DNA of 64,000 nt from Actinomycetota bacterium (lineage in GTDB: Bacteria; Actinomycetota; Acidimicrobiia; IMCC26256; PALSA-610): positions 1 to 64,000 of the forward strand of contig SXHN01000072.1 of NCBI GenBank assembly GCA_005773635.1, given 5' to 3'. The first letter of the stretch is position 1. Each line of letters begins with the position of its first letter. The position numbers and the translations under genes were made by a program. This document shows positions 29,991-45,363 of the stretch, one piece after another. Under the pieces are notes generated by a model. It ran no database searches and was not told the origin of the DNA. It worked only from the letters and a program-made list of their open reading frames with translations.

Positions 29991-30011
29991 AATCTGACGG
30001 CCCGTCAGATT
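29991..30011. promoter_or_regulatory. Palindromic operator, copy 1 of 3 (ipdA/SDR divergent promoter)
   Basis: Perfect inverted repeat with core ATCTGACG-GCC-CGTCAGAT; the symmetry reaches 10 bases on each side of the central C (arms at 29991-30000 and 30002-30011). It is 16 bases before the ipdA start. The same core occurs at 37598-37620 and 44398-44416, in each case before an acyl-CoA or SDR gene. The form suits a TetR-family dimer. Confidence 0.8.
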
Positions 30012-30027
30012 GCGCGAAGGAAATGCT

Positions 30028-30876
30028 GTGGCAGCACCAGACAAGCGAGTCACGTTTGATGAGATCGTTGGCGAGATCGACGATGGAATGACCGTAGGAA
30101 TCGGCGGTTGGGGTTCGCGCCGCAAGCCAATGGCACTCGTGCGTGCGCTCCTGCGATCGCCGGTCAAAGACCTCACAATCGTGAGCTACGGCGGCCCCGA
30201 TGTTGGCATGCTGTGCCGCGCTGACAAGGTCGCCAAGGTTGTCTACGCGTTTGTGTCACTCGATTCGATCCCCCTTGAACCCCATTTCCGCAATGCCCGC
30301 CAGCGTGGCGCAGTGGCAACCACGGAACTCGATGAAGGCATGTTCTTGCTTGGCCTACAAGCTGCTGCGTGGCGCGTGCCGTTTCTTCCCACTCGCGTTG
30401 GGCTCGGCTCCGACGTCCTCGCGAACCCTGACCTCAAACTCGTTACATCGCCATATGGCGAACAGGAACAGCTCGTTGCGATGCCCGCACTCGAACTCGA
30501 TGTCGCACTCGTGCACATGCACCGAGGCGATCAGGGCGGCAACGGGCAGTTCCTCAATGTCGACCCCTACTTCGACGATCTGATGTGCTCGGCAGCAACC
30601 AAGAGCTTCATGAGCGTGGAACGCATTGTCGCTACCGAAGACTTTCTCAAAGAAGGCTCGGTGCACACGCTGCGGATCAACCGACTCATGGTGAGCGGCG
30701 TCATCGAAACTCCCAATGGCGCGCACTTCACCGACTGCCCACCCGACTATGCACGCGACGAAGCATTCCAAAAGGAATACGCCGCTAGCGCCAAGTCTGA
30801 TGAAGCGTGGGACGCCTTCAGGGCGAAGTACCTAGATGTTTCCGAAGCCGACTATCAGAAAGCGGTGACGTCATGA
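30028..30876 (+). CDS. ipdA: IpdA: alpha subunit of steroid ring-cleaving CoA hydrolase
   Basis: 282 residues from a GTG with GAAGGAAA upstream; the frame reaches 30010 but that lies in the operator. VGIGGWGSRRKPMALVRALL, VSYGGPDVGMLC, DPYFDDL and FMSVERIVATEDFLKE match M. tuberculosis IpdA (Rv3551) as recalled. IpdAB has a class I CoA-transferase fold but hydrolyses the remaining carbocyclic ring of the COCHEA-CoA intermediate. The glutamate in ELDEGMF (E103 here) aligns with the one I recall as catalytic. IpdB follows after 40 bases. Confidence 0.9.
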   Translation: MAAPDKRVTFDEIVGEIDDGMTVGIGGWGSRRKPMALVRALLRSPVKDLTIVSYGGPDVGMLCRADKVAKVVYAFVSLDSIPLEPHFRNARQRGAVATTELDEGMFLLGLQAAAWRVPFLPTRVGLGSDVLANPDLKLVTSPYGEQEQLVAMPALELDVALVHMHRGDQGGNGQFLNVDPYFDDLMCSAATKSFMSVERIVATEDFLKEGSVHTLRINRLMVSGVIETPNGAHFTDCPPDYARDEAFQKEYAASAKSDEAWDAFRAKYLDVSEADYQKAVTS

Positions 30877-30916
30877 GCCACTCGGGGCGCGTAACGCAGC
30901 GCAGCGGGGGTGCAGC

Positions 30917-31687
30917 ATGAGCGCGCCTACGCGTGCCGAGGTTGTTGCCGTTGCTGTCGCGGAAGCCTTTCGCGGCGATGGCGAAATTCTTGCCAATCCA
31001 ATCGGCACGATTCCCATGATTGGTGGGCGGCTCGCGAAAGCGACGTTCGAGCCCTACCTGCTGATGACCGACGGCGAAGGCCTTCTGATCGAAAACATCA
31101 TGCCGGTTGGAGTCGAGAACCCCGAGAAAGTAATCGCCGCTTGGAATCCGTATCGGTCGATGTTCGACATCGTCTGGAACGGCCCGCGGCACGTCATGAT
31201 GGGCGCAACCCAGATCGATCAATACGGCAACCAAAACATCGCGATGTTGGGCGGCACGATCGCTCAACCAAAAACACAATTGTTGGGTTTTCGCGGCGCA
31301 CCCGGCAACACCATCAACAACAAGACGAGCTATTTCGTACCGAATCACTCAACCAAATCGTTCGTTGCGCACGTTGACGTCGTCTCGGGCATCGGCTACG
31401 ACAAGGCCGCGAAACTCGGTGCACACGCAGCGCGCTTCCACTGTTTGCCCCGAGTGGTGAGCAACCTCGGCGTATTCGATTTCGAGACTCCTGACCACCG
31501 CATGCGCCTTCGCTCGGCGCATCCCGGAGTGTCAATCGACGTCATCGTCGCGGCGACTGGATTCGAGTTAGAGATCCCGAACGGGTGCCCCGAAACGCGC
31601 CTCCCCACCGACGCGGAATTGCAACTCATTCGCGATGTGATCGACCCCAACAGTTGGCGCGAGCAAGAACTCCCCAATCCGTCGTGA
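30917..31687 (+). CDS. ipdB: IpdB: beta subunit of steroid ring-cleaving CoA hydrolase
   Basis: 256 residues with a class I CoA-transferase beta-subunit fold. TIPMIGGRLAKATFEPYLLM, GATQIDQYGNQN and FRGAPGNTINNKTSYFVPNH are visible. IpdB pairs with IpdA in an alpha2-beta2 hydrolase. The strand order, alpha before beta, and the following ipdC gene are as in M. tuberculosis Rv3551-Rv3553. The stop is shared with a possible GTG start of ipdC (GTGA). Confidence 0.88.
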   Translation: MSAPTRAEVVAVAVAEAFRGDGEILANPIGTIPMIGGRLAKATFEPYLLMTDGEGLLIENIMPVGVENPEKVIAAWNPYRSMFDIVWNGPRHVMMGATQIDQYGNQNIAMLGGTIAQPKTQLLGFRGAPGNTINNKTSYFVPNHSTKSFVAHVDVVSGIGYDKAAKLGAHAARFHCLPRVVSNLGVFDFETPDHRMRLRSAHPGVSIDVIVAATGFELEIPNGCPETRLPTDAELQLIRDVIDPNSWREQELPNPS

Positions 31688-31689
31688 GT

Positions 31690-32751
31690 ATGAACGACAC
31701 GCTGCAGACCGCAGCATGTGCCCTCTTCGGAATTCGTTACCCGATCGTACAAACGGGAATGGGCTACGTCGCTGGCGCACGCCTCGCAGCGGCAACCAGT
31801 GAAGCGGGTGGGTTGGGCATCATTGCATCAGCAACGCTGAATTACGACGAGCTCGAAACTGCAATTCACAAAGTCAAGGAACGCACGAACAATCCGTTCG
31901 CGGTGAACCTGCGGGCCGATGCCGAAGACGCCACGAAGCGCATCGAATTGCTCATACGCGAGCAAGTGAAGGTTGCGTCGTTCGCGCTTGCCCCGAAAGA
32001 AGCACTCATCAAACAATGCAAAGACGCAGGCGTCGTCGTGATGCCATCGATCGGAGCACGACGCCACGCCGAAAAGGTGGCAGCATGGGGCGCCGACGCG
32101 GTGATCTGTCAGGGCGGCGAAGGTGGCGGCCACACAGGCTCGGTGCCTACAACGTTGTTGTTGCCACAAATCATTGACGCGGTCGACATTCCGGTCATCG
32201 CCGCAGGAGGATTCTTCAGCGGGGCCGGTCTCGTTGCCGCACTCGCGTACGGAGCGGCGGGAATTGCCATGGGAACCCGCTTTCTGCTCACCCAAGAATC
32301 GACCGTGCCCAACGACGTCAAGGCGTTCTATCTCGACAAGACTGTGAATGACACCGTCGTCACCACCAAAGTCGATGGCGCGCCCCATCGCGTGTTGCTC
32401 ACGCCGATGGTCGAAGGTCTTGTCTCGGGATCATCAGTCACAGCACTCCCCCGCGCACTCAAAAATGCGATCGGTTTCAAGAAGATCTCGGGCTTGTCGT
32501 GGCAAGCGATGATTCGAGAGGGCCTCTCGATGAAACAAAGCGGCGAGTTGTCGTGGGCCGCGGTACTGATGCAGGCCAACACGCCGATGCTGCTCAAAGC
32601 GGCGATGGTCGATGGCAACCTCAAGGGTGGCGTCATGGCCAGTGGCCAAGTGGTCGGCGTAATCGACGACGTTCCAACGGTTGAAGAAGTAATCGAACGC
32701 ATCATGAGCGAAGCGCGCGCGTCGCTCACACACCTAGGAGTCTCACCGTGA
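31690..32751 (+). CDS. ipdC: IpdC: flavin-dependent reductase of steroid C/D-ring catabolism
   Basis: 353 residues of the nitronate-monooxygenase/FMN TIM-barrel family. FGIRYPIVQTGMGYVAGARL, GQGGEGGGHTG-type CQGGEGGGHTGSVPTTLLLP, IPVIAAGGFFSG and GTRFLLTQESTVPN are visible. It matches Rv3553 (IpdC) as recalled, a reductase needed before ring opening. The ATG at 31690 or the GTG at 31684, which overlaps the ipdB stop, could be the start. It is translationally close to ipdAB and belongs to the same operon. Confidence 0.87.
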   Translation: MNDTLQTAACALFGIRYPIVQTGMGYVAGARLAAATSEAGGLGIIASATLNYDELETAIHKVKERTNNPFAVNLRADAEDATKRIELLIREQVKVASFALAPKEALIKQCKDAGVVVMPSIGARRHAEKVAAWGADAVICQGGEGGGHTGSVPTTLLLPQIIDAVDIPVIAAGGFFSGAGLVAALAYGAAGIAMGTRFLLTQESTVPNDVKAFYLDKTVNDTVVTTKVDGAPHRVLLTPMVEGLVSGSSVTALPRALKNAIGFKKISGLSWQAMIREGLSMKQSGELSWAAVLMQANTPMLLKAAMVDGNLKGGVMASGQVVGVIDDVPTVEEVIERIMSEARASLTHLGVSP

Positions 32752-32764
32752 CCCGAGTCTTGCC

Positions 32765-33202
32765 ATGACAAGAGTGCCGGCCATAGACGGTTGGTTCACC
32801 GCGGATGAAGCGAATCCTCATCTTCTCGGCACCCGTGGCGTCACGAGCGGGAGCTACTTCTTTCCGCCGTCGCTTGCCGTTTCCGCAAACCCAAACGCGC
32901 CGTTCGAAAGTCGCGAACCGGCGGAGCTGTCGCGCACTGGCACCTTGTGGTCATACACCACCAACCATTACTCCCCTCCCGAACCATCAGTGCAGAAAGC
33001 GCCGTACACGGTGTGCGCGGTCGAACTCGTCACCGAGAAGATGGTGGTTCTCGGACCCCTTGCGACCGGGGCTGACGCGTCGCGGCTCAAAGTCGGAATG
33101 CAAATGGAACTTGTCATTGGCCCACTCTTCACCGAAGACGGCGTCGAACACACGATGTATCAGTGGGCGCCGCTCACGGATCCACAAGGAGGTGTGCGAT
33201 GA
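32765..33202 (+). CDS. DUF35-type OB-fold protein without zinc-ribbon cysteines
   Basis: 145 residues. The OB fold GTLWSYTTNHYSPPEP, YTVCAVELVTEKMVVLGPL and VGMQMELV is clear, but the ribbon segment reads LLGTRGVTSGSYFFPPSLAV, where CxxC and CxxC normally stand. It overlaps the following Ltp gene by 4 bases, so it is the Ltp partner. It probably binds acyl-CoA or stabilises the thiolase-like dimer without zinc. Confidence 0.78.
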   Translation: MTRVPAIDGWFTADEANPHLLGTRGVTSGSYFFPPSLAVSANPNAPFESREPAELSRTGTLWSYTTNHYSPPEPSVQKAPYTVCAVELVTEKMVVLGPLATGADASRLKVGMQMELVIGPLFTEDGVEHTMYQWAPLTDPQGGVR

Positions 33203-34404
33203 GCCGCGACCGCGACCTTGCGATCATCGGTGTTGGTATGCATCCGTGGGGCAAGTGGGGCAAGAATTTCGTGGAGTACGGCGTTATCGCGGCACGCGAA
33301 GCACTCGCTGATGCGGGGGTGGACTGGCGCGATATCCAATTTGTCGCCGGTGCCGACACGATGCGTAACGGGTATCCGGGTTACGTCGCCGGAGCAACGT
33401 TCGCGCAGGCACTCGGCTGGCAGGGTGCACAAGTGGCGTCGTCGTACGCCGCGTGCGCGAGTGGCGTCACGGCAATGTCGACCGCCCGAGCACAGATCCT
33501 CGCCGGTATGGCAGACGTCGCGATGGTCATTGGTGCCGACACCACGCCCAAAGGCTTTCTGGCTCCCAATAAGGGCGAACGCGGCGATGACCCCGACTGG
33601 TTGCGGTTTCGGCTACTTGGCGCTACCAACCCGACGTACTTTGCGTTATACGCCCGCCGTCGCATGGACCTCTACGGTGCGACTCGCGAAGATTTCGCGC
33701 GGGTCAAGGTAAAAAATTCACTCCACGGTCTTGAGAATCCCTACGCGCGGTACCGGCGTGCAGCTTCGATCGAAGACGTTGTGACATCTCCGCTTGTCGC
33801 CGACCCGTTGTCGTTACTCGACATTTGTGCCACATCTGACGGTGCGGCGGCGATGATCGTCACCTCCATGGACTGGGCCAAAGCGCACGGCTACGACAAA
33901 GCGATTCGTATCCGAGGCGTCAGCACAACAACGCCTTCGTATCCCAACACCGTGATCGAAATGCCGAACTTTGCAACCGACAGCGCGGCGGGTATCGCAA
34001 CTCCTGGCGCGACGGGCATTGGCTTTAAGGATTCCATCGCGCTACGAGCGTACGAAGAGTCTGGGCTTGGCCCTGAAGATCTGTCGTGCGCCGAGGTATA
34101 CGACCTCTCGACTGCGTTGGAGCTGGACTGGTACGAACACATTGGTTTGTGCGCCAAAGGTGAAGCCGAAAATCTCCTGCGGTCCGGTGCGACCGCGCTG
34201 GGAGGACGTGTGCCCGTGAACCCGAGTGGCGGCCTCGCCTGCTTTGGCGAGGCCGTGCCGGCGCAAGCCATCGCACAGATTTGTGAACTGACTTGGCAGC
34301 TACGCGGTACCGCGGGGGCACGTCAAGTCGACGGTGCAAAGGTTGGCCTTTCAATCAACCAAGGTCTGTTCGGCCATGGCAGTTGCGTCATCGTCTCGCA
34401 GTAA
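33199..34404 (+). CDS. Thiolase-like lipid-transfer protein (Ltp3/Ltp4-type)
   Basis: 401 residues from an ATG overlapping the DUF35 stop. DLAIIGVGMHPWGKWGKNF, YAACASGVTAM (with a Cys at the thiolase nucleophile region), EVYDLSTALELDWYEHIGLC, NPSGGLACFGEAVPAQ and GQFGHGS-type LFGHGSCVIVS are visible. Relatives (Rv3522/Rv3523) work in actinobacterial sterol side-chain degradation as aldolases or thiolases. Placement after ipdC ties this step to the ring-degradation operon here. The exact reaction is not determined. Confidence 0.8.
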   Translation: MSRDRDLAIIGVGMHPWGKWGKNFVEYGVIAAREALADAGVDWRDIQFVAGADTMRNGYPGYVAGATFAQALGWQGAQVASSYAACASGVTAMSTARAQILAGMADVAMVIGADTTPKGFLAPNKGERGDDPDWLRFRLLGATNPTYFALYARRRMDLYGATREDFARVKVKNSLHGLENPYARYRRAASIEDVVTSPLVADPLSLLDICATSDGAAAMIVTSMDWAKAHGYDKAIRIRGVSTTTPSYPNTVIEMPNFATDSAAGIATPGATGIGFKDSIALRAYEESGLGPEDLSCAEVYDLSTALELDWYEHIGLCAKGEAENLLRSGATALGGRVPVNPSGGLACFGEAVPAQAIAQICELTWQLRGTAGARQVDGAKVGLSINQGLFGHGSCVIVSQ

Positions 34405-34415
34405 CCGCACCGATG

Positions 34416-34437
34416 AGCCAGCTCTGATCAGCTGGCT
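34416..34437. terminator. Bidirectional terminator-like hairpin between ltp and DJ-1 genes
   Basis: AGCCAGCT-CTGATC-AGCTGGCT forms a perfect 8-base stem followed by TGTTCTTC on the plus strand. It includes the last codons and stop of the DJ-1 gene on the other strand. Confidence 0.6.
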
Positions 34438-35069
34438 TGTTCTTCAGCTTCATTGATCGCCCGCAACAACGCAACAAAATCCGGGCCAGCTTTCGTTGGC
34501 GACCCACAGTCGAACGGCGGCTGCGGGTCATATTCGATGCCAAGCTGAATTGCCTTCGCGACGTCGTCGCCTTGAATACGCGACACTAACGTGAGCGCCA
34601 TATCGATCCCGGCAGAAACGCCAGCGCCCATCATGATCTTGCCGTGTTCTACTACGCGCTGTTCGGTGTAGATCGCGCCCGTGGTCTCTAGCAAATCCGT
34701 CGAGGCCCAATGCGTGGTTGCGGTCAAACCGTTGAGTAAGCCCGCAGCACCGAGCAACAACGATCCTGTGCACACCGATGTCGTCCACTGCGAAACGCCG
34801 TGCACTCCTCGAATCCATTCCATCGTGTAGGCATCGCTCATCAATCTCCGTGTTCCGAAGCCGCCAGGAATCAGCAAAACGTCGGGTGACGGAATTTCGC
34901 TCATCGCAACGTCGGCCGTTATGCCGAGCATCCGCGAGTCGGTTCGTATTTCACCGCGTTCGCGAGCACAAAACACCACCTCTACTCCAGGCATGCGACA
35001 TAGCACGTCGTAGGGGCCGATGCAGTCGAGTGCAGTGAAGCGGTCATACAGCATGATGGCTATTTTCAT
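34428..35069 (-). CDS. DJ-1/PfpI-family protein (AraC-like N-domain type)
   Basis: 213 residues from an ATG with AAGGGA seven bases upstream; an upstream ATG at 35090 overlaps the AraC stop but gives an unusual N-terminus. IAIMLYDRFTALDCIGPYDVL, the acidic residue in CARERGE, PGGFGTRRL and the nucleophile elbow SVCTGSLLLG with an active-site Cys are family features. It is coupled to the AraC-type regulator, itself of the same fold at its N-terminus. Isonitrile-hydratase-like or signalling roles are possible. Confidence 0.82.
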   Translation of the reverse strand: MKIAIMLYDRFTALDCIGPYDVLCRMPGVEVVFCARERGEIRTDSRMLGITADVAMSEIPSPDVLLIPGGFGTRRLMSDAYTMEWIRGVHGVSQWTTSVCTGSLLLGAAGLLNGLTATTHWASTDLLETTGAIYTEQRVVEHGKIMMGAGVSAGIDMALTLVSRIQGDDVAKAIQLGIEYDPQPPFDCGSPTKAGPDFVALLRAINEAEEQAS

Positions 35070-35086
35070 TGTGTTTTCCCTTGATG

Positions 35087-36058
35087 TCATGCGGCACGAA
35101 ACCGCGAACGGTAGTCAGACGGGGCGACGCCAAGCTGGCGATGAAACGAGCGCCGCAACGTTTCGGTTGAACCAAAACCCGCGGCGCTCGCGACGTCGTC
35201 AAGCGACAGCGCCGATTGTTCAAGCAATCGACGCGCAGTTTCGACGCGTACCCGCTCCACGTATTCGCCAGGAGTTACCCCAGTCTCGTTCGCAAACACC
35301 CGTGCAAAGTTCCGTTCGCTCATCGCGGTTCGTTGTGCCATCGTCGCAACCGACAGGTCGGCTCCCGGTTGTTCCAATATGAACTGTTGAAGCTCGCGGA
35401 TCGGCCCTCGTTGCGCGGTCTGGGCACTGAGTTGTGCGCTGAATTGCGCTTGTCCGCCCTGCCGATGCACGAAGAGCACAAGCCATCGCGCCACGTACAG
35501 CGCTGCGTCGCGACCCAAATCTTCTTCCACCATTGCCAACGCCAAGTCCATGCCAGCGGTCACTCCGGCACTCGTGAGATACTTGCCGTCACGCACAAAA
35601 ATGGGGTCGGGTTCAACCACGATTGAGGGAAACAAGGTCGCAAGCCGTTCGCATTCACTCCAATGCGTGGTGGCGCGGCGACCTTTGAGCAAGCCGGCAG
35701 CGGCAAGCACAAACGAACCAGAACAGACGCTTGTTGTTCGTGTCGTCGTGGCATCAATCGTCTGTATCCAATCCAGCAACCGCGCATCGCGCGACGCGAC
35801 AGCAGTGCCTTCGCCGCCCGCCACGATTACCGTGTGCACCGGCAACGCAACTTCGTCGAGCCGGCACCGCGGTGAGATTTCTAGACCGCTTGGCGTCGAA
35901 AATGGCGTGCCGTCACACGTCGCCACGATCGGGTCGTACCTAGTCGCCAGACCCTGCTCCGCTGCCCACCGGTCAGCGCGCGCGAACACTTCGAGTGGTC
36001 CCACAACGTCAAGGATCTGGACGTCGGGATAGGCGACGATAACGACCGAACGGTTCAC
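35087..36058 (-). CDS. GATase1-like AraC-family transcriptional regulator
   Basis: 323 residues from a GTG at 36058; the frame is open to 36100 but the extra residues lack similarity. The N-terminal DJ-1/PfpI-like domain has VIVAYPDVQILDVVGPLEVFARAD and SVCSGSFVLAAAG. The C-terminal AraC domain has two helix-turn-helix units, including MSERNFARVFANETGVTPGE and LDDVASAAGFGSTETLRRSF. Such regulators (CdhR, FtrA-like) sense small metabolites. It probably controls its own operon with the DJ-1 gene. Confidence 0.85.
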   Translation of the reverse strand: MNRSVVIVAYPDVQILDVVGPLEVFARADRWAAEQGLATRYDPIVATCDGTPFSTPSGLEISPRCRLDEVALPVHTVIVAGGEGTAVASRDARLLDWIQTIDATTTRTTSVCSGSFVLAAAGLLKGRRATTHWSECERLATLFPSIVVEPDPIFVRDGKYLTSAGVTAGMDLALAMVEEDLGRDAALYVARWLVLFVHRQGGQAQFSAQLSAQTAQRGPIRELQQFILEQPGADLSVATMAQRTAMSERNFARVFANETGVTPGEYVERVRVETARRLLEQSALSLDDVASAAGFGSTETLRRSFHRQLGVAPSDYRSRFRAA

Positions 36059-36174
36059 GAATAGGAGTTTTACCGATATTGCATGTGGCAGCAATGACAA
36101 TATCCGGTCATTTACTGCCAGAATGGCTGTCCCCGGTGGCCGCCGCCCTATCTCCAGTCACTACGCTTGCAGCG

Positions 36175-37422: not shown

Positions 37423-37597
37423 TCTCTACAAACAAACTTGCCAGCACGCGCGGCAACATGCGAGCGCGTTGCAGATACGCGCAAGATGAACTGCGAGAAC
37501 TTCACCAGAGCGACGATGGCGCGTTTCTTTACCGTGGGCGGTCGAATCTCGCGCCAACCAGACCCGACGAATTCGGCATGGTTGTCACGACGACTTA

Positions 37598-37620
37598 TGA
37601 TCTGACGCCCCGTCAGATCA
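37598..37620. promoter_or_regulatory. Palindromic operator, copy 2 of 3 (fadE-fadE-fadA6 operon)
   Basis: TGATCTGACG (37598-37607), CCC, CGTCAGATCA (37611-37620) is a perfect 10-3-10 inverted repeat, 27 bases before the acyl-CoA dehydrogenase start. The rest of the 225-base gap to the M23 gene shows nothing else I can identify. Confidence 0.8.
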
Positions 37621-37647
37621 GCCTTCAGGTCACGTGAATCCGGAGCT

Positions 37648-38799
37648 ATGGACCTCAGTTTTTCTCCCGCAGAAGAAGCGTTCCGCACCGAGCTACGTGC
37701 GTGGCTTGCGGCCAACGTTCCCAGCCCATCGCTCCCCTCGGGCGACACCGCGGAGGGCTTCGCGTTACACCTTGAGTGGGAGCGGAAGCTCTTCGCCGCG
37801 CGATACGCAGTTGTGAGTTGGCCCGAGGAATTTGGTGGTCGCGACGCATCGCTCTGGGAGTGGCTGATCTTCGAGGAAGAATATTGGCTCGCAGGCGCGC
37901 CACAACGCGTCACGCAGAACGGAATCTTCCTCCTCGCACCCACCATCTTCGAATTCGGCACATCTGCGCAGCAGCACGCAATTCTGCAGAAGATGGCGTG
38001 CGGTGAACAGACCTGGTGCCAGGGCTGGAGCGAACCAAACGCGGGGAGCGACCTCGCCGGCATTTCGAGCACCGCGACACGCGACGACGCCGATGACGGA
38101 TGGCGCCTGAACGGACAAAAGACGTGGACAACTCGCGGCGCGTTCTGCACCCATCTCTTTGGATTGTTCCGCACCGACCCATCGGCTGAGCGTCACAACG
38201 GCATGACCTATTTGTTGGTGGATCTTGATCAGCCCGGTATCACAGTGCGCGGCGTTGAACGTCTCGACGGCGACGAGGGATTCGCGGAAGTGTTCTTTGA
38301 CGACGCATTTGTGCCCGACAGCATGGTGCTCGGCGAAGTGAACAAAGGGTGGGGTGTCGCAATGGCGACAACAGGTTCCGAACGAGGTCTCACCTTGCGG
38401 TCGCCAGGACGTTTCCTCGCTACCGCACACAAGCTCATCGATCTCGCGCAACAGCTGCCGCACGACGCGACTCCCGAACTTCGCGATCGCATCACCCAAG
38501 CTTGGATTGATGCGCAGGCCTACCGCTGGCAAACTTTTTGGACCGTCACCAAACTGGTGGAAGGCGGCCATACCGGCCCGGAATCCAGCATGGTCAAGGT
38601 GTTTTGGAGTGAACTTGACGTGGAACTCCACGAAATCGCGCTCGACCTGCTCGGGCCGCATGCTGAGCTCGTCGACGGCGAATTCGCCCATTGGATGAAG
38701 GGCTATCAGTTCGCACTGTCGGGCCCGATCTACGCAGGCACCAACGAAATCCAACGCAACGTGATCGCCGAACGAGTGTTGGGACTCCCCCGCAAATGA
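37648..38799 (+). CDS. Acyl-CoA dehydrogenase, subunit 1 of a heteromeric pair
   Basis: 383 residues. Family features are LFAARYAVVSWPEEFGGRDA, TWCQGWSEPNAGSDLAG, WRLNGQKTWTT, and the C-terminal GPIYAGTNEIQRNVIAERVLG. The stop overlaps the start of a second, shorter dehydrogenase. In mycobacteria many steroid-specific acyl-CoA dehydrogenases are alpha2-beta2 enzymes from adjacent fadE genes, each lacking half of a FAD site, and this pair probably works likewise. Placement with fadA6 suggests ring C/D intermediates (FadE31-FadE32-like). Confidence 0.84.
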   Translation: MDLSFSPAEEAFRTELRAWLAANVPSPSLPSGDTAEGFALHLEWERKLFAARYAVVSWPEEFGGRDASLWEWLIFEEEYWLAGAPQRVTQNGIFLLAPTIFEFGTSAQQHAILQKMACGEQTWCQGWSEPNAGSDLAGISSTATRDDADDGWRLNGQKTWTTRGAFCTHLFGLFRTDPSAERHNGMTYLLVDLDQPGITVRGVERLDGDEGFAEVFFDDAFVPDSMVLGEVNKGWGVAMATTGSERGLTLRSPGRFLATAHKLIDLAQQLPHDATPELRDRITQAWIDAQAYRWQTFWTVTKLVEGGHTGPESSMVKVFWSELDVELHEIALDLLGPHAELVDGEFAHWMKGYQFALSGPIYAGTNEIQRNVIAERVLGLPRK

Positions 38800-39752
38800 A
38801 GTTTTCGTTCACCGACGATCAAGACGCGTTTCACGATGCGGTGCGCGACCTCTTGGCGCAAAGGTGCACAGCTGCAAAGGTGCGCGCCGCGTGGAGCAAT
38901 CGCACCGGCCGCACGCCCGATGCTTGGAGTGCACTCAGCGAAATGGGAGTGCTCGACGCACTGCGCCCAGAATCCGACGGCGGGCTCGGGCTGAATGAAG
39001 TCGACGTCATTCGCATTCTCGAAGCCACCGGCCGCGTGGCACTGCCTGAACCGATCGTCGAGACCATGATGGTCGCGGCGCCGTTGAATTTGGCGAGCGT
39101 CGGCCAATCGGCGAGCGTCACGATTCCCGAATCTCCGCTTGCCCCTTGGGCCAATAGCACCGATGTGGTCATCTCACTCGCAGCCGACGGATTGCGAGCA
39201 CATGCGGCCGCGGCGATTACGTGCACATCAAGGGGGTCGGTAGATGGAGCCCGACGACTGTTTCAGGTCGCGCTCGATGATGTTGCGGTCGCGTCAACAC
39301 ATGTGGCGATCGCATTTCGTCGCGGTGTACTCGGGTATGCCGCGCAGCTGTGTGGGCTCAGCGACACGATGCTCGCGCTCACCGTGGAGTACGCGAAGGA
39401 ACGCAAACAGTTCGGCGTACCCATTGGTACGTTTCAAGCGGTGAAACATCAGCTCGCAAACGCGCGTATCAAACTCGAGTTTGCGCGGCCGCTCGTATAT
39501 CGCGCCGCGATGTCGCTTGCCACAAATGACCCGGCGGCCTCAATGCACACGAGCATGGCAAAGGCGGTCGCAGGTGACGCCGCAATGGCGAGCGCGAAGG
39601 CATCACTGCAATGTCACGGCGCGATCGGCTACACAACCGAACACGATCTGCACCTCTACATGAAACGGGCGTGGGCGCTGAACGCGGCGTGGGGCGACGC
39701 TGCATGGCACCGTCGCCGAATTTCCAACGTGTTGTTGAGCGACGCTCAATAG
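38796..39752 (+). CDS. Acyl-CoA dehydrogenase, subunit 2 of a heteromeric pair
   Basis: 318 residues from an ATG overlapping the previous stop. It is short for the family: the middle beta domain is reduced, while KERKQFGVPIGTFQAVKHQLA and SLQCHGAIGYTTEHDLHLY are intact. These match the FadE32/FadE33 type (recalled as about 318 residues). It is followed 22 bases later by fadA6, so dehydrogenation and thiolysis genes are coupled. Confidence 0.83.
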   Translation: MKFSFTDDQDAFHDAVRDLLAQRCTAAKVRAAWSNRTGRTPDAWSALSEMGVLDALRPESDGGLGLNEVDVIRILEATGRVALPEPIVETMMVAAPLNLASVGQSASVTIPESPLAPWANSTDVVISLAADGLRAHAAAAITCTSRGSVDGARRLFQVALDDVAVASTHVAIAFRRGVLGYAAQLCGLSDTMLALTVEYAKERKQFGVPIGTFQAVKHQLANARIKLEFARPLVYRAAMSLATNDPAASMHTSMAKAVAGDAAMASAKASLQCHGAIGYTTEHDLHLYMKRAWALNAAWGDAAWHRRRISNVLLSDAQ

Positions 39753-39774
39753 CCAATGATTACAGGAGTATTCC

Positions 39775-40923
39775 ATGGCTGAGGCCTATATCGTCGACGC
39801 AGTCCGCAGCCCCGTGGGCCGCAAGAATGGTGGATTGAAAGACATACACCCTGCGGATTTGGGCGCGCACAGTATCGCTGCACTGATGCACAGAACTGGT
39901 CTCGATCCAATGGCAGTCGATGACGTGGTGTTCGGCTGCGTCGATACGATCGGGCCACAAGCCGGAGATATTGCGCGCACTGCGTGGCTGGTAGCGGGGC
40001 TGCCCGACGCGATTCCTGGCACGACCGTCGATCGCCAGTGTGGTAGCAGCCAACAAGCGGTCCACTTCGCAGTACAAGCTGTCATGAGCGGGACTATGGA
40101 CATCGTCGTCGCCGGCGGCGTGCAAAACATGAGCATGATCCCAATCAGCAGCGCGATGACAGTCGCACAACCAATGGGATTTGAGACTCCTTTCAGCACC
40201 TCGCCGGGTTGGCAAGCGCGTTACGGTGACCAAGAAATCAGCCAGTTTCGTTCGGCCGAAATGATCGCTGAGCATTGGAACATCTCGCGCGTCGAAATGG
40301 AAGACTTCGCAATCGAATCGCATCGCCGCGGGCTGCGAGCAATTACCGAAGGCCGCTTTGAACGAGAGATTGCTCCACTCGCGGGCGTCGCCCACGACGA
40401 AGGCCCGCGGGAACCCAACGTCGACAAGATTCGTTCACTGCGCACGCTCGTTGAGGGCGGTCGCCTCACGGCCGCGGTCAGCTCGCAAATTTCTGATGCT
40501 TCAGCCGCGTTGTTGATCGTGAACGAAAAGGCATTGAAAACACATGGCCTCATACCCCGTGCCCGCATTCATCATCTCTCGGTGCGCGGCGCAGACCCAG
40601 TATGGATGCTCACTGCGCCAATTCCCGCGACGCAGTACGCAATGAAAAAGTCGGGTATGACACTCGATCAAATTGATCTCATCGAAATCAACGAAGCCTT
40701 TGCATCTGTGGTGCTCGCCTGGCAACGTGAAACCGGTGTCGACTTATCCAAAGTCAATGTCAATGGCGGTGCCATCGCACTCGGTCACCCACTTGGGGCA
40801 ACCGGAGCGCGCCTTATGACAACGCTGCTCAACGAACTCGAACGCACCGGCGGCCGATTCGGCATGCAGACGATGTGTGAAGGCGGGGGCCAAGCCAACG
40901 TCACCATCATCGAACGCCTGTAA
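39775..40923 (+). CDS. fadA6: Thiolase FadA6 (acetyl-CoA acyltransferase)
   Basis: 382 residues with the full thiolase set: nucleophile C89 in VDRQCGSSQQAV, GGAIALGHPLGATGAR with the catalytic His, and TMCEGGGQANV with the second Cys. MAEAYIVDAVRSPVGRKNGG and the YGDQEISQFRSAEMIAEHWN segment match M. tuberculosis FadA6 (Rv3556c) closely as recalled. FadA6 cleaves acetyl-CoA from C/D-ring propionate derivatives. It is the last gene of the operon controlled by operator copy 2. Before the next gene there are 56 bases without a clear terminator. Confidence 0.88.
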   Translation: MAEAYIVDAVRSPVGRKNGGLKDIHPADLGAHSIAALMHRTGLDPMAVDDVVFGCVDTIGPQAGDIARTAWLVAGLPDAIPGTTVDRQCGSSQQAVHFAVQAVMSGTMDIVVAGGVQNMSMIPISSAMTVAQPMGFETPFSTSPGWQARYGDQEISQFRSAEMIAEHWNISRVEMEDFAIESHRRGLRAITEGRFEREIAPLAGVAHDEGPREPNVDKIRSLRTLVEGGRLTAAVSSQISDASAALLIVNEKALKTHGLIPRARIHHLSVRGADPVWMLTAPIPATQYAMKKSGMTLDQIDLIEINEAFASVVLAWQRETGVDLSKVNVNGGAIALGHPLGATGARLMTTLLNELERTGGRFGMQTMCEGGGQANVTIIERL

Positions 40924-40979
40924 ATCCAGAAGTGGTGATATATCCACCGCCGGTCGATCACATTTCGTTAAGGTAAGCC

Positions 40980-41546
40980 ATGACTTCCGTGCCGCCACCG
41001 CCCCCCGTCGACGCCCAGCCATGGGGCGAACCCATTGCATATCAACCCTCCATGCAAATCGCGTACGCGAGTTGGGGAGCGCGTTTGGGTGCGCTTTTGA
41101 TCGACAGCTTCATTGTTGGAGCGATGAACATCCCGGCAATCATTGCCGTCTTTGCGGGTCCTAAAACCACCGAATCCTGCTCGGTCGGCAGCGATGGCAA
41201 CATCGACTTCAGTGGTGGCGTCAATAACGCGATCTGTGAGGTTCCGAGCGGCACGACCTGGGCGCTTTGTGGCCTGCTGTTGGTCGCGGCTTTCGTCGGA
41301 GGTCTCGTATATCGAGCCAAGACCGATGGGGTGACCGGCCAGACGATTGGCCGAAAAGCCGTCGGAATCAAGCTGGTCGATATCAACACCGGCCAACCAA
41401 CTGGTGCCGTTCGAGCCGTCGCCCGCCAGTTTGCCTACACAATCTCGGCAATTCCGTGCTACATCGGTTTTCTGTTTCCGCTCTGGGACGCCAAGAAGCA
41501 AGCGCTACACGACAAGGTGCTGTCGACCGTCGTTATCAAGGCGTAG
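40980..41546 (+). CDS. RDD-family membrane protein
   Basis: 188 residues. A Pro-rich cytoplasmic N-terminus (PPPPPVDAQPWGEP) leads into three or four transmembrane helices. The RDD hallmarks are LGALLIDSF near residue 40 and TIGRKAVGIKLVD before the last helix, ending KKQALHDKVLSTVVI. Function unknown; RDD proteins are proposed transporters or stress-related. AAGG lies just upstream of the ATG. Confidence 0.8.
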   Translation: MTSVPPPPPVDAQPWGEPIAYQPSMQIAYASWGARLGALLIDSFIVGAMNIPAIIAVFAGPKTTESCSVGSDGNIDFSGGVNNAICEVPSGTTWALCGLLLVAAFVGGLVYRAKTDGVTGQTIGRKAVGIKLVDINTGQPTGAVRAVARQFAYTISAIPCYIGFLFPLWDAKKQALHDKVLSTVVIKA

Positions 41547-41556
41547 CCCCGACGAT

Positions 41557-41784
41557 CTAGTCGTCCTTCAACGCAACTGCGTTTGGGGTTACGTTCATCT
41601 TGGGCACGTATTCGGCTTTGTCGATGTCTTGGGCACTCGCGGCAAACTTCTCACGTAGAGATTCCGCGCAGGCCGCACAAGGCCCATGGAATCGCTGGTG
41701 CACAACTGCACCACAGCGCGGGCATCCGCACTCGACATCGGGATAGTCGTTGGCATTGATGACGTCGAGCACTCCCATTCCCAT
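41557..41784 (-). CDS. Small zinc-ribbon protein
   Basis: 75 residues if the ATG at 41784 is used; two other in-frame starts exist (41805 TTG, 41778 ATG). VECGCPRCGAVVHQRF and GPCAACAESLREKF form two CxxC pairs expected to bind zinc. The C-terminus VPKMNVTPNAVALKDD looks conserved-like. It faces the RDD gene tail to tail. Function unknown. Confidence 0.55.
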   Translation of the reverse strand: MGMGVLDVINANDYPDVECGCPRCGAVVHQRFHGPCAACAESLREKFAASAQDIDKAEYVPKMNVTPNAVALKDD

Positions 41785-41883
41785 GGCCGCATACTCGCGC
41801 GGCAATACCCTCAGTGCGGGTATTTGTCACACCGACGATGCAGCCATCTTGTCGCCGATCTGCACACACTGCATGCTGCGACC

Positions 41884-42075
41884 ATGGCGAACCGGTTGGG
41901 TCTCATTGGGCGCGGGACGCTCCTCGGCATGCTGTGGGGCATCACCGCAGGCACTTTCTACGGCACCACTTGGCAACAGGGTGCCCTCGTTGGCCTCGCG
42001 CTCTGGGGTCCGTGCGTTTTCGTCGCCGTACCAGGGCCGCACCCGACCGTATACGACCCAATCCGCGTCGAATAG
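41884..42075 (+). CDS. Small hydrophobic membrane protein
   Basis: 63 residues. The Gly-rich segment LLGMLWGITAGTFYGTTWQQ is followed by a second hydrophobic stretch LVGLALWGPCVFVAVPG, suggesting a two-helix membrane hairpin. It lies in a 315-base gap between the zinc-ribbon gene and the M15 peptidase and is 25 bases before the latter on the same strand. No family recognised. Coding status is moderately likely. Confidence 0.4.
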   Translation: MANRLGLIGRGTLLGMLWGITAGTFYGTTWQQGALVGLALWGPCVFVAVPGPHPTVYDPIRVE

Positions 42076-42099
42076 GGCTACGCGCGCCACAATGGCACT

Positions 42100-42876
42100 A
42101 TGCGCGTTGCACAAGTCTCGTTTGGGTTAGCCGTCGCGGTGGCGTTGTCGTCGTCGTGTGGTGTGTTCCAACGCGATCCCGACCGCCGCGAATCAAGCAC
42201 ACGGCGAGCATCAGCGCACACAGCCGCGACGACTCCTCCCACGGCGCCCCGTCGAATTGTCATCCCTGCGCCTCAAGGAATGGTCGCGGACTCAACCCAT
42301 CGGTTCAGCTACACCTCCGACCACATCTCCGCAGCCATAGCCGCGCGAGTGTCCGGCAGTTCTTGGCGGCCCGGTTGCCCAGTGCCTCTCGAACAGCTTC
42401 GCTATGTGCGGCTGTCCTACTGGGGTTTCGATGGCCTCCCGCACACCGGCGAGCTCATCGTGCACGCCGACGCCGTTGGCACGATTGCGACTGCGTTTCG
42501 ACGCATGCACGCAGCTCGCTTTCGGATCGCGAAAATGCAGCTAGTCGACGACTTCGGCGCCGACGATGATCGCTCCACGCAAGCGAACAACACATCGGCA
42601 TTCAATTGCCGGGCTGTGACTGGCGGCGGACGATTTTCGCAACACTCCTACGGTCGAGCCATCGATATCAACCCGGTCCAAAACCCGTATGTGTATGCCG
42701 ACGGAAACGTGCTCGACCCTGCGGCACGCCCGTACATCAGCCGATCGCCGGTGCGGACGGGCATGATTGTCGACGGCGATGTCGTAGCAACTGCATTCTC
42801 CGAAGCCGGGTGGGGCTGGGGTGGAAACTTCAAGAGTTTCAAGGATTATCAACACTTCAGCGCCAACGGCGGCTAG
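42100..42876 (+). CDS. M15-family D-Ala/L-Ala peptidase-like exported protein
   Basis: 258 residues. The N-terminal hydrophobic stretch ends in SSSCG, a possible but non-standard lipobox. The C-terminal domain (about 110-258) has the M15C signature SQHSYGRAIDIN, supplying His and Asp zinc ligands, and DYQHFS with the third His. Members cut peptidoglycan peptide bonds at the cell wall. A Thr/Pro linker joins the two parts. Confidence 0.78.
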   Translation: MRVAQVSFGLAVAVALSSSCGVFQRDPDRRESSTRRASAHTAATTPPTAPRRIVIPAPQGMVADSTHRFSYTSDHISAAIAARVSGSSWRPGCPVPLEQLRYVRLSYWGFDGLPHTGELIVHADAVGTIATAFRRMHAARFRIAKMQLVDDFGADDDRSTQANNTSAFNCRAVTGGGRFSQHSYGRAIDINPVQNPYVYADGNVLDPAARPYISRSPVRTGMIVDGDVVATAFSEAGWGWGGNFKSFKDYQHFSANGG

Positions 42877-42888
42877 CCAGCTGGCCCA

Positions 42889-43527
42889 CTAACTCATGAA
42901 CACGGTTGGTACCGTAATGCCCAACGGTTTGTGGCGCAGCGTCGCAATACGACGCCCCGTTTGTACGGCGTCTTTCGGCGGACTCAACGCGTCGGCGAGT
43001 AGTAGCGCGCAAGCATCAAGATCTGCGGTGGTGAATGCCAACCCCCAAAATGTCGCAGGCCGCGCCGCGACATCCGGGTCGTCGGAAACTGTTGGCGGCC
43101 CAATGATCTCAAGAATCACTTCGCCTGCGCGCACAAACACTTGACGAATCGGCATCGACTCCGAGCCACCTTTCCGTTCGCGCTTCGGATCGCAACCGGC
43201 GACGACGAATGATGCAACGGTCCGGTCTACGTCGGGAGTTGCGATCACGACGTGGTCGATGATCGTTGCGCCATTCGCGTGAACCGCCGGCGTTCCCAAT
43301 GCGCCGTCGGTCACCGTCGTGGGAAGGCCATCAAGAACCGTTCCTATAGGTATGCCGCGCACAGTCCAGCCGACAACTCCAACGCCGGATGCGCCGCAAC
43401 GCATGGCAACGGTGCCCACCCTGACGGTGTCCCCCTCGACGGTGAACCCGGCGCGGCCCCATGATTGTGCATCATCGCCCATGTCCAGTGCGACAATCTC
43501 CAGCATCGAAGCACTCTGTGCACTCAT
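42889..43527 (-). CDS. VOC/glyoxalase-like superfamily protein
   Basis: 212 residues with a first module HVVIATPDVDRTVASFVVAG and a second AFTTADLDACALLLADAL, the paired beta-alpha-beta layout of VOC proteins. EVILEIIGPP contains a candidate metal-binding Glu. The start overlaps the LLM gene stop (ATGA), so it is coupled to that enzyme and may act in the same catabolic step. Reaction unknown. Confidence 0.75.
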   Translation of the reverse strand: MSAQSASMLEIVALDMGDDAQSWGRAGFTVEGDTVRVGTVAMRCGASGVGVVGWTVRGIPIGTVLDGLPTTVTDGALGTPAVHANGATIIDHVVIATPDVDRTVASFVVAGCDPKRERKGGSESMPIRQVFVRAGEVILEIIGPPTVSDDPDVAARPATFWGLAFTTADLDACALLLADALSPPKDAVQTGRRIATLRHKPLGITVPTVFMS

Positions 43528-44357
43528 AACAGCGCTGCGAACGAGTCGAGGTACGGCAACACTGCATCACGACTTCCCCCCGGGAGCCGCAGCACAACCT
43601 CCTCGATCCCAAGGTCTGCGTAGTAACTCAGTTTGCCGGCCTCGGGAATCGTGCCAAATGGGATCACCGCGAGGTCTTCGACATTCCGGCCGTGCTGGTC
43701 ACACAACGTGCGCAGTTGGTTGAGCGCGGCGCGCACACCGGCACCTCCGATTGGCAGCCAACCATCGGCGTACTCCGCAACATGCGACAGCAACTTCGGG
43801 CCTGGTGCGCCGCCGATCAAAACGGGTGGACCTTTTGGATCACTGCACTTGGGCCACGACCACGAAGGCGAAAAGTCAACGTGGATACCGTGATATTCGC
43901 CTTCATCGTTTTGCCACAACGCCCGCATCGCGGCAATTCGTTCGCGGGTCACATCACGTCGGTCTGGCATCGCAACGCCGTGGTGTGCCAATTCATCGGC
44001 ATTCCAACCGAACCCGATGCCGAGACGAAAACGTCCGCCTGATTGTGAGTCGAGCGTAGCAATCGCCTTGGCGGTAACAATGGGGTCGCGTTGAGCGGGC
44101 AACAAAATACCGGTTCCGACTACGAGATCCGTCGTGACTGCCGCAGCCATCGCGAGTGCGACCAACGGGTCGAGGGTCCGCTTGTATTCCTCCGCGAGTT
44201 GCGATTCTCCCGTCGGTGGCGGCGTCTTACGACTCGTAGGTATGTGGGTGTGTTCGGGAACATACAGCGAGCACAAACCCCTCGCTTCGACTTCGCGGGC
44301 CAAGTCCATGACGCGAATGGTCTGATCGGTTGCAAACATCGTGACGCCGATTCGCAC
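43524..44357 (-). CDS. LLM-class F420-dependent oxidoreductase
   Basis: 277 residues. MRIGVTMFATDQTI, SLYVPEHTHIP, VGTGILLPAQRDPI and RLGIGFGWNADELAHHG are typical of the TIGR03619-like F420 family. It lies under operator copy 3, divergent from an Hsd4A-like SDR, so both should respond to the same repressor. A steroid-related reduction is likely from context. An extra inverted repeat CCGCTGACAGCGG (44375-44387) lies in its leader. Confidence 0.82.
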   Translation of the reverse strand: MRIGVTMFATDQTIRVMDLAREVEARGLCSLYVPEHTHIPTSRKTPPPTGESQLAEEYKRTLDPLVALAMAAAVTTDLVVGTGILLPAQRDPIVTAKAIATLDSQSGGRFRLGIGFGWNADELAHHGVAMPDRRDVTRERIAAMRALWQNDEGEYHGIHVDFSPSWSWPKCSDPKGPPVLIGGAPGPKLLSHVAEYADGWLPIGGAGVRAALNQLRTLCDQHGRNVEDLAVIPFGTIPEAGKLSYYADLGIEEVVLRLPGGSRDAVLPYLDSFAALL

Positions 44358-44374
44358 TGCGACTCCTTCGTGGC

Positions 44375-44387
44375 CCGCTGACAGCGG
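44375..44387. promoter_or_regulatory. Short perfect inverted repeat in LLM gene leader
   Basis: CCGCTG-A-CAGCGG, 17 bases before the LLM start and 11 bases from operator copy 3. It might be a second repressor contact or an mRNA hairpin; short enough to be chance. Confidence 0.35.
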
Positions 44388-44397
44388 AAGTTAGGGT

Positions 44398-44416
44398 ATC
44401 TGACGGGCCGTCAGAA
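44398..44416. promoter_or_regulatory. Palindromic operator, copy 3 of 3 (LLM/SDR divergent promoter)
   Basis: ATCTGACG-GGC-CGTCAGAA keeps the 7-3-7 core TCTGACG/CGTCAGA (44399-44415) of copies 1 and 2. It lies about 45 bases before the SDR start and 41 before the LLM start, a position suited to control of both. Confidence 0.75.
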
Positions 44417-44460
44417 ATTGCATGGCCTCGTGGCATCGGGTCGAACCAAAGGAAAACAAG

Positions 44461-45363
44461 TTGGGTATCTGCGAAGGACGCGTGGTCATCGTGACCGGGT
44501 CGGGCAATGGCCTCGGTCGGGAACACGCATTGGAGTTCGCCCGCCAGGGTGCGCGTGTAGTGGTGAACGACCTTGGAGTCGATCGCACGGGGCACGGGCG
44601 AGAATCCGACGTTGCGCAATCTGTCATTGAAGAGATTCATGCTCTCGGTGGCGAAGCGGTCGCCAACGCGAGCGACGTTGCCGACTTTGCGAGCGCTGAA
44701 ACGCTCATCCGAACCGCGATCGAGACTTTTGGACAACTTGACACCCTCGTCTGCAACGCCGGGTTCGTACGCGATCGGATGTTCGCAAATACTGCAGAAG
44801 ACGAGTGGGACGCCATTATCCGCGTGCATCTCAAAGGCCATTACGCACCGGCACGCCACGCGACAGCGTATTGGCGGGATCAAGCCAAAACCGGTCAACC
44901 CGTCGATGCGCGCATTATCAACACCTCGTCGGGCGCGGGGCTGATGGGGAGCGTTGGGCAAGCCGCATACTCGGCGGCAAAAGCGGGGATTGCTGCGCTC
45001 ACACTCGTGCAAAGCGCCGAACTTGGCCGTTACGGCGTGACCGCGAATGCAATTGCGCCGTCGGCGCGTACCCGCATGACTGAGAGCGTTTTTGGTGACC
45101 GCATGGCCGTTCCTGAATCTGGATTCGATCCGAACCACCCCGAAAATATTGCACCATTAGTGGCTTGGCTCGGATCCCACGACAGTGCGGACGTCACCGG
45201 CCGAATCTTCGAAGTGGAAGGCGGCATGATTTCGGTGGCAGACGGCTGGCAACACGGAGAGGTCGTTGACAACGGCGCTCGTTGGCAACCCGTTGATATC
45301 GGTGCGGCGGTTCGGGGTCTCATCGCCCGCGGCCCCACCCAGACTCCGGTGTACGGGGCCTAG
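44461..45363 (+). CDS. Short-chain dehydrogenase, Hsd4A-like
   Basis: 300 residues from a TTG at 44461 with AAAGGA about 7 bases upstream; this gives the N-terminus MGICEGRVVIVTGSGNGLG, matching Hsd4A-type SDRs (Rv3502c) as recalled. An ATG at 44422 would place the start close to the operator. YSAAK is the catalytic pair, and REHALEFARQGARVVVNDLG is typical of multifunctional-enzyme-type 17-beta-hydroxysteroid dehydrogenases. Likely role: NAD-dependent oxidation of a 3-hydroxyacyl or 17-hydroxy group in steroid side-chain catabolism. Confidence 0.82.
   Translation: MGICEGRVVIVTGSGNGLGREHALEFARQGARVVVNDLGVDRTGHGRESDVAQSVIEEIHALGGEAVANASDVADFASAETLIRTAIETFGQLDTLVCNAGFVRDRMFANTAEDEWDAIIRVHLKGHYAPARHATAYWRDQAKTGQPVDARIINTSSGAGLMGSVGQAAYSAAKAGIAALTLVQSAELGRYGVTANAIAPSARTRMTESVFGDRMAVPESGFDPNHPENIAPLVAWLGSHDSADVTGRIFEVEGGMISVADGWQHGEVVDNGARWQPVDIGAAVRGLIARGPTQTPVYGA

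Follow-up and report, generated by a model that had tools for sequence, protein, structure and literature searches.

A palindrome beside steroid-type catabolic operons of an Acidimicrobiia bacterium is linked to a TetR-family regulator found in several phyla

A palindrome, ATCTGACG-N3-CGTCAGAT, stands before steroid-type catabolic genes in the window (the whole 64,000-nucleotide stretch of DNA analyzed), is conserved across genomes, and is linked, both genome by genome and through its gene neighborhood, to one type of TetR-family regulator. We consider it very probable that the palindrome is the operator of this regulator, a repressor governing the steroid-type catabolic operons, whose binding, repression, and response to an effector we infer. 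The regulator is most likely encoded outside the window, on contig C60 of the same genome. The putative repressor–site pair recurs across several phyla, in bacteria from soil and water, Streptomyces among them. A literature search by the letters of the palindrome and by topic, judged on the titles listed and of a kind that figure-only motifs escape, found no description of it as an operator.

Results

Copies of the palindrome in the window and the genome

The palindrome occurs at positions 29992, 37600, and 44398 of the window, the third copy with one mismatch. A sequence-only reading of this DNA had reported three copies with a shared core, two of them perfect over 9 to 10 bases per arm, and both statements are borne out: TCTGACGNNNCGTCAGA matches exactly at 29993–30009, 37601–37617, and 44399–44415 in a window search, and the perfect arms measure 9 bases (29991–30011), 10 bases (37598–37620), and 7 bases (44398–44416). 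The copies and the genes around them are as follows.

29128..29901, minus strand: ipdF-like SDR (PRK07856), divergent from ipdA
29992..30010, no strand: putative operator copy 1, ATCTGACGGCCCGTCAGAT, between the divergent ipdF-like SDR (minus) and ipdA (plus)
30028..30876, plus strand: ipdA, CoA-transferase alpha subunit, GTG start at 30028; best solved relative 6co6_A, E = 5e-104
30917..31687, plus strand: ipdB, CoA-transferase beta subunit; best solved relative 6co6_B, E = 3e-75
31585..32751, plus strand: ipdC-like FabK-family reductase, given as the longest ORF (real start probably downstream of 31585); below the FabK model cut-off
33163..34404, plus strand: lipid-transfer/thiolase-like protein (PRK06059)
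37600..37618, no strand: putative operator copy 2, ATCTGACGCCCCGTCAGAT, 29 bases 5′ of the fadE start
37648..38799, plus strand: fadE, acyl-CoA dehydrogenase; best solved relative 4x28_A, E = 1e-39
38691..39752, plus strand: IpdE2-like acyl-CoA dehydrogenase, given as the longest ORF; NF050027, E = 4e-35, below cut-off
39775..40923, plus strand: thiolase (PRK07801), which we take to be fadA6-like, a name adopted from the sequence-only reading
43524..44357, minus strand: F420-type LLM oxidoreductase (TIGR03619), divergent from Hsd4A
44398..44416, no strand: putative operator copy 3 with a single mismatch, ATCTGACGGGCCGTCAGAA, flanked by the divergent LLM oxidoreductase and Hsd4A-like SDR
44422..45363, plus strand: SDR (PRK07791), presumably Hsd4A-like; start perhaps TTG 44461

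The second and third copies stand where the earlier reading had placed them, before the fadE operon and between the LLM and Hsd4A genes. Its placement of the first, before ipdAB, needed amending: this copy lies between divergent ipdF and ipdA, ending 17 bases 5′ of the ipdA start codon.

The genome-wide motif scan that had been proposed as a check yielded nine near-exact places, each adjoining a catabolic or uptake gene. All nine depart from the palindrome at no more than 1 of 14 positions (0 exact for the reversed pattern). In the whole 3.56-Mb assembly, TCTGACGNNNCGTCAGA has six exact places (reversed control pattern 0), and the 19-base form ATCTGACNNNNNGTCAGAT has seven exact and two one-mismatch places (reversed control 0 exact). 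Since, with three mismatches allowed, the short form showed no excess (129 places against 115 for the control in the genome; 6 against 4.6 expected in the window) and the 19-base form some (80 against 25 in the genome), counting was restricted to near-exact copies. Among 75 unique listed sites from several genomes, the free positions −2 and +2 are G and C in 95%; these are the only informative arm positions, because the search pattern itself fixed the remaining arm letters.

Genes adjoining the sites

In the genome under study, the sites stand a short way 5′ of ipdABC (with ipdF divergent), fadE-ipdE2-fadA6, the Hsd4A/LLM pair, amidohydrolases, a lipid-transfer gene, and two ABC operons. The earlier suggestion of an undescribed operator for the KstR2 regulon thus stands in part: the palindrome is operator-like over HIP-pathway genes (those for the steroid C/D rings), but the regulon is not simply that of KstR2, as it takes in the amidohydrolase, ABC uptake, and lipid-transfer genes too. 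At one of these places (contig C25), a carbonic-anhydrase-type gene lies on the far side of the site, off the catabolic theme.

In the set drawn from several genomes, 63 of the 75 sites coincide with a gene 5′ end or precede one, compared to 26% of random positions; 10 of the 75 fall inside called genes and 2 elsewhere. When neighbors of the listed sites were named by their best match within 29 reference proteins, the commonest among those named was an Amidohydro_2 gene rather than ipdAB, and at 33 of 72 sites the neighbor received no name. Among the sites listed, the LLM/Hsd4A pair also flanks the site in genomes G001 and G006, and an ipdF-like SDR adjoins it in G015.

Conservation before orthologous ipdA genes, another proposed check, was found in about half of the genomes: 15 of 28, the one under study included, have a site with at most 2 of 16 mismatches in the 1.5 kb upstream of ipdA, and the rest have no site there. 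The same search with 60 permuted palindromes gave 0. The sample comprised 30 of 47 matches, of which L168 and L184 were dropped for having no upstream DNA. That the link to ipdA is limited to the window's own family is ruled out, as outside that family the site lies 783 to 909 bases before ipdA; in G015, the gene that it precedes is an enoyl-CoA hydratase (PRK07938).

A candidate repressor on contig C60

The candidate TetR is encoded at about 51728–52402 of contig C60 in the genome under study (G000). It carries a TetR_N helix-turn-helix domain (PF00440, above cut-off, at C60:51821), and its predicted structure is all-helical with a pLDDT of 92. The nearest solved structure is EthR of Mycobacterium tuberculosis, by profile (E = 1e-12) as well as by fold (TM-score about 0.8), yet a distant one at 21% identity. 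EthR has a different operator and target, ethA. Against NCBIfam at 1e-10, the C60 TetR matches no family, the KstR model included; the TetR encoded in the window matches NF033703. The next gene after the C60 TetR is an aldehyde dehydrogenase (ALDH) of the Rv0768 family, scoring below the cut-off of that model.

A TetR gene with its own upstream copy of the palindrome had been named as something to look for, and this is seen in some relatives but not in the genome under study. There the C60 TetR promoter has no site, and the nearest one, 3.1 kb upstream, is separated from the TetR gene by a gap and by a gene that matches no family, so autoregulation is doubtful in this genome. In a sample of 30 of the 37 TetR orthologue matches, six have a site in their own promoter (four with one mismatch, one with three, and one with four; 0 of 200 mononucleotide shuffles for each) and 24 have none. 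At some further TetR loci, the site stands at the head of the TetR operon.

Co-occurrence of site and regulator

Genome counts, which are not phylogenetically independent, tie the site to this type of TetR. Among 61 genomes, the one under study included, 24 have both site and TetR, 2 the site only, 8 the TetR only (no exact site), and 27 neither, at an orthologue cut-off of E ≤ 1e-50 that was picked after the list was seen; at 1e-20, with 36 TetR-positive genomes, the corresponding counts are 24, 2, 12, and 23 (p = 4e-6). Both site-only genomes, G018 and G046, are incomplete. Across 396 actinobacterial genomes, the site occurs in 37 of 41 with the TetR versus 15 of 355 without it, and every one of the 26 genomes with at least three sites has the TetR. 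The four TetR-positive genomes lacking a site are Streptomyces-like, and the reversed control gave 0 among the rows listed.

The pairing also emerges when loci are found by the TetR alone. The best 80 of 562 relatives yielded 36 sites with at most one mismatch (reversed control 0), and 50 of these 80 loci were inspected singly. This set overlaps the G-numbered genomes, as some loci share upstream sequences and apparently come from the same genomes. TetR and site were found together again in records labeled Myxococcota, Gammaproteobacteria, and Streptomyces, the Myxococcota locus having the order site-kshA-tetR. Of 28 loci with Streptomyces members of the TetR clade, 27 have an AfsK-like kinase next to the TetR, and by this position these members probably correspond to SCO4421.

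Other candidate regulators

KstR2, the TetR repressor of HIP catabolism in mycobacteria and rhodococci, offers the closest parallel, with a TetR-type palindrome before ipdAB, ipdC, ipdF, and fadA6-type genes. Its operator has the form AnCAAGnnCTTGnT, a sequence different from the palindrome studied here, as the sequence-only reading had said, and its targets are narrower. In mycobacteria it controls ipdAB, ipdC, ipdF, and fadA6, according to the available text of PMC5380842, which favors reading the site as a diverged KstR2 operator or as one that KstR2 itself binds. We regard this reading as very unlikely: the KstR2 form is not enriched in the genome (9 places versus 7 for the control, with 0 on the window's contig, C56), KstR2 structures match the C60 TetR no better than at E = 0.06 and do not appear in the profile search at 0.001, and the palindrome tracks a TetR clade other than that of KstR2.

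The TetR that the TetR_N search found in the window itself, at 6085–6699, is KstR-like and by location could be the protein that binds the palindrome. It scores 129.6 bits against NF033703 (below the cut-off of 280) and matches the KstR structure 5ua2 at E = 2e-21, and KstR-like and C60-type TetRs are often found together (both in 32 of 396 genomes). The genomes that have only one of the two decide between them, with the site present in 8 of 9 that have the C60-type without a KstR-like TetR but in 2 of 19 of the reverse class. The window TetR fails this test of specificity, so we reject it as the regulator, its role at the palindrome being highly improbable.

Because an Rv0768-type ALDH adjoins the C60 TetR, as expected for the "motif X" regulon of phytosterol-induced genes, that regulon at first seemed to be the answer. 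Its palindrome precedes sterol-induced operons and has been matched to the TetR Rv0767c, encoded beside an Rv0768-family ALDH (available text of PMC6593523). In Mycobacteriaceae-like genomes, however, the gap between TetR and Rv0768-type ALDH appears to bear a different palindrome: GGACA-N2-TGTCC, as read here from DNA rather than from the published logo, occurs twice in 9 of 10 readable gaps and the palindrome core in 0 (17 loci, in 7 of which the script did not find the TetR). Nor are these TetRs close to the C60 TetR in sequence, matching it over short stretches at 33% of 70 residues for the best of the genus and 38% of 50 in another genus. We therefore set aside identity with motif X as extremely improbable.

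That the palindrome works as an RNA hairpin or terminator rather than a protein operator, as its perfect inverted repeats of 7 to 10 bases per arm in the window might suggest, is scarcely credible given the constancy of the −2 and +2 letters, the position of listed sites before the starts of divergent genes, and the way site presence tracks a DNA-binding protein.

Discussion

We propose that a dimer of the C60-type TetR would occupy the 19-bp site. This site would coincide in part with the promoter or the start of transcription, some tens of bases 5′ of the first gene, and the bound dimer would hold the steroid-type catabolic operons off until freed by an intermediate of the pathway, probably an acyl-CoA thioester. 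The regulon here would comprise the HIP genes ipdABC and ipdF, fadE-ipdE2-fadA6, and the Hsd4A-like dehydrogenase, together with amidohydrolases, the lipid-transfer gene, and two ABC uptake systems.

A wider reading, which to us could equally well prove right or wrong, is that Acidimicrobiia, Streptomyces, Myxococcota, and Gammaproteobacteria all run steroid-type catabolism under one ancient TetR-operator pair, which either predates the divergence of these lineages or was passed among them together with its site, and that this pair replaces KstR2 over HIP genes outside mycolic-acid bacteria and gives SCO4421 its targets and ligand class. To our knowledge, an operator preserved nearly letter for letter across phyla is unusual. 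Another TetR repressor of steroid catabolism, the estrogen repressor EdcR of Caenibius tardaugens, has a different palindrome, TnnCnnTACnAnTnGTAnnGnnA, proposed to lie over the −10 box (available text of PMC8700777).

If the operator reading holds, uncultured bacteria could be searched for steroid-type catabolic genes with a single short DNA motif, and the unnamed amidohydrolases and transporters beside the site would be marked as likely parts of steroid-type metabolism. A Streptomyces regulator without a phenotype would likewise gain a testable role: SCO4421 of S. coelicolor, a TetR close to afsK much as the Streptomyces clade members sit beside an AfsK-like kinase, is reported to be developmentally regulated and to have a mutant without a phenotype, and the available text of that report mentions neither operator nor targets (PMC3878966).

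In genome G026, one site stands directly 5′ of a TetR gene from another clade.

A palindromic site recurs across the genome

The sequence-only reading had taken a three-copy palindrome for a likely undescribed operator over ipdAB- and fadA6-type genes, and its three positions proved exact when checked against the window. The assembly as a whole (G000; 3.56 Mb in 125 contigs) has the 17-base core at six exact places, against none for the reversed control. A 19-base form, ATCTGACG-N3-CGTCAGAT, describes the site better; with its five central bases free, it occurs at seven exact places and at two more with one mismatch. When three mismatches are allowed, the short form is lost in background (129 versus 115 for the control), and the 19-base form is less swamped (80 versus 25).

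Places of the 19-base site in G000 (contig:position; the window lies in C56) and adjacent genes
C9:8418, before an Amidohydro_2 gene
C47:44480, between a thiolase-like lipid-transfer gene and two Amidohydro_2 genes
C56:29992, between an ipdF-like SDR gene and ipdABC
C56:37600, before fadE, IpdE2-like and fadA6-like genes
C56:44398, between an LLM gene and an Hsd4A-like SDR gene
C60:48596, before fadE and IpdE2-like genes, with a divergent gene without assigned name on the other side
C105:2159 and C105:7878, before two ABC uptake operons with Peripla_BP_6 proteins
C25:102213, before an Amidohydro_3 gene with an acyl-CoA ligase gene behind it, and with a carbonic-anhydrase-type gene on the far side

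The assignments of IpdA and IpdB are firm, their best solved relatives being the CoA-transferase 6co6 chains (E=5e-104 and 3e-75, respectively). Family models and assumed equivalences underlie the names Hsd4A, ipdF, fadA6, and KshA, and several family-model matches score below the NCBIfam cut-offs. At C47:42500-46400 (L002), the site separates the lipid-transfer/thiolase-like gene and a small neighbor without assigned name from the two divergent Amidohydro_2 genes; a similar arrangement is found in G008 and G012, and the gene set possibly serves a retro-aldol type step. The region C105:1700-12900 (L005) holds a tandem pair of branched-chain-type ABC uptake systems with one operator copy apiece, whose substrate is perhaps a steroid acid. 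Between the ipd and fadE operons of the window (34428-36100, minus strand), a DJ-1/PfpI-type gene adjoins an FtrA-like AraC-family regulator.

The site is conserved and lies at gene starts

The exact 14-letter pattern is present in 26 of 61 genomes, our own included, and its reversed control in none. Because of shared ancestry, such genome counts are not independent. The listed places whose surroundings were fetched give 75 unique sites, of which 63 lie at or before the 5' end of a gene (26% for random positions taken from these loci) and 10 within a gene body (65% for random positions); the remaining 2 fall elsewhere. At the two pattern-free positions flanking the searched letters, 95% of these 75 sites have G and C. 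With a small reference set, Amidohydro_2 of the C9 type is the commonest named neighbor (26 of the 72 sites with a start nearby; 33 have a neighbor without a match), and therefore the core target appears to be this gene and not ipdAB.

A TetR on contig C60 is the candidate regulator

Among 25 TetR_N matches in G000, the candidate is the TetR at about C60:51728-52402, where the order is site, fadE, ipdE2-like, a gene without family match, tetR, ALDH, and aldolase. Two other genomes have a TetR with 55-60% identity to this protein no more than 3 kb from a site; in G020, it stands directly behind the site. The site stands in the own promoter of 6 of 30 orthologues examined and is absent from that of the C60 TetR itself. 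At E<=1e-20, C60-type TetRs are found in 36 of the 61 genomes, and 32 of these also pass 1e-50; at the latter threshold, 24 genomes have both TetR and site, 2 the site only, 8 the TetR only, and 27 neither (p=6e-8).

The association was tested again on a larger and more independent set, 396 actinobacterial genomes of at least 90% completeness drawn across the phylum, with up to one of 16 mismatches allowed in the site. The site is found in 52, the TetR in 41, and both in 37. Outside a Streptomyces-like genus, all 22 TetR-positive genomes carry the site, versus 15 of 355 TetR-negative genomes, which have a single site each except for two in G442. Computation establishes the site, its position, its conservation, and its linkage to the TetR.

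The KstR-like TetR of the window (6085-6699, plus strand), which matches the KstR equivalog model below its cut-off, served as the control regulator. It is present in 51 of the 396 genomes, 32 of which also have a C60-type TetR; the site accompanies it in 2 of the 19 genomes without a C60-type TetR, versus 8 of 9 with the C60-type TetR alone. A second KstR-like gene of G000 (C47:55434-56018, minus strand) is 42-43% identical to it.

In G026, the variant ATCTGACAGTGTGTCAGAT (L066:1713-1731) stands immediately before both a divergent gene (384 aa) and a TetR from a different clade; the half-site may be shared by a paralogous regulator.

The site upstream of ipdA tends to occur with the TetR

Of the 61 genomes, 45 have an ipdA match, and 30 of these loci were fetched. 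All seven genomes of the window's own family having both TetR and an ipdA match carry the site, with at most one mismatch, directly before ipdA; an eighth TetR-positive genome of the family, G010, has no ipdA match. G003 and G007, the two examinable same-family genomes without a TetR match, keep ipdA and have no site directly before it. In G003, a remnant with four mismatches lies 8 bases upstream of the start (1.5% of shuffles do as well), as if the operator had decayed after regulator loss.

Outside the family, nothing convincing lies within 250 bases of ipdA in the fetched loci; in eight of them, the site is 783-909 bases upstream, with a PRK07938-type enoyl-CoA hydratase gene intervening in G015 and a similar-sized ORF of unassigned identity in the other seven. 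Over 1.5 kb, with up to two of 16 mismatches, the footprinting proposed by the sequence-only reading finds the site in 15 of 28 loci (own included), and 60 permuted palindromes give no match. Among loci of TetR-positive genomes, 13 of 20 have the site, versus 2 of 8 among the others, namely G018 (87% complete) and G029 (with a 37% identical homologue).

Known systems and a proposed mechanism

Motif X of PMC6593523, a serious candidate, appears to be a different palindrome, as judged from the DNA between a TetR and an Rv0768-type ALDH. In mycobacteria-like genomes, GGACA-N2-TGTCC occurs twice in 9 of 10 readable regions of this kind (among L315-L328) and is perhaps motif X of Rv0767c. The core of our site is in none of the 10, and their TetRs are not close to the C60 TetR. 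GGACA-N2-TGTCC is absent from L330, the one region of another genus. The palindrome proposed for EdcR also differs from the site, and the KstR2 site is not enriched.

We infer that the C60 TetR binds the site directly, with a negative sign of control and an effector. Its dimer would block transcription from over the promoter, and a catabolite would loosen the dimer so that transcription resumes. The C60 TetR model has an all-helical TetR fold (mean pLDDT 92); EthR is the nearest known structure, a likeness that says little about the ligand. Our guess of a CoA thioester is made by analogy, because the KstR2 effector is HIP-CoA (PMC5380842).

The site extends beyond the phylum

Named genomes were searched with the TetR alignment alone. 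In the best 80 of 562 relatives (0.8 Mb of DNA), the site occurs 36 times with no more than one mismatch, and the reversed control never. Of these copies, 39 acidimicrobial and other loci contain 17, 13 loci labeled Proteobacteria or Myxococcota contain 5, and 28 Streptomycetaceae loci contain 14. Some organism labels are doubtful; L192, L205, and L206 are titled Bifidobacterium breve, but their TetR and neighbors are of acidimicrobial type, and the labels look wrong.

The site is followed by a kshA-type oxygenase gene (KshA_C E=2e-40) and tetR in L210 (labeled Myxococcota), by an SDR gene and tetR in L231 and L201, by Amidohydro_2 and tetR in L208 (labeled Pseudomonadales), and by fadE, IpdE2-like, Hsd4A-type SDR, and tetR in L220. 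Among the same best 80 of 562, the TetR adjoins an AfsK-like kinase in 27 of the 28 Streptomycetaceae loci. According to PMC3878966, the TetR gene SCO4421 is located near afsK, and its deletion gave no phenotype; from this position, SCO4421 would be the Streptomyces member of the C60 type. In the one Streptomyces locus annotated (L237), the site lies between IpdE2-like and thiolase-like genes, and a further copy precedes a lipid-transfer protein gene with a ChsH2-like OB-fold partner.
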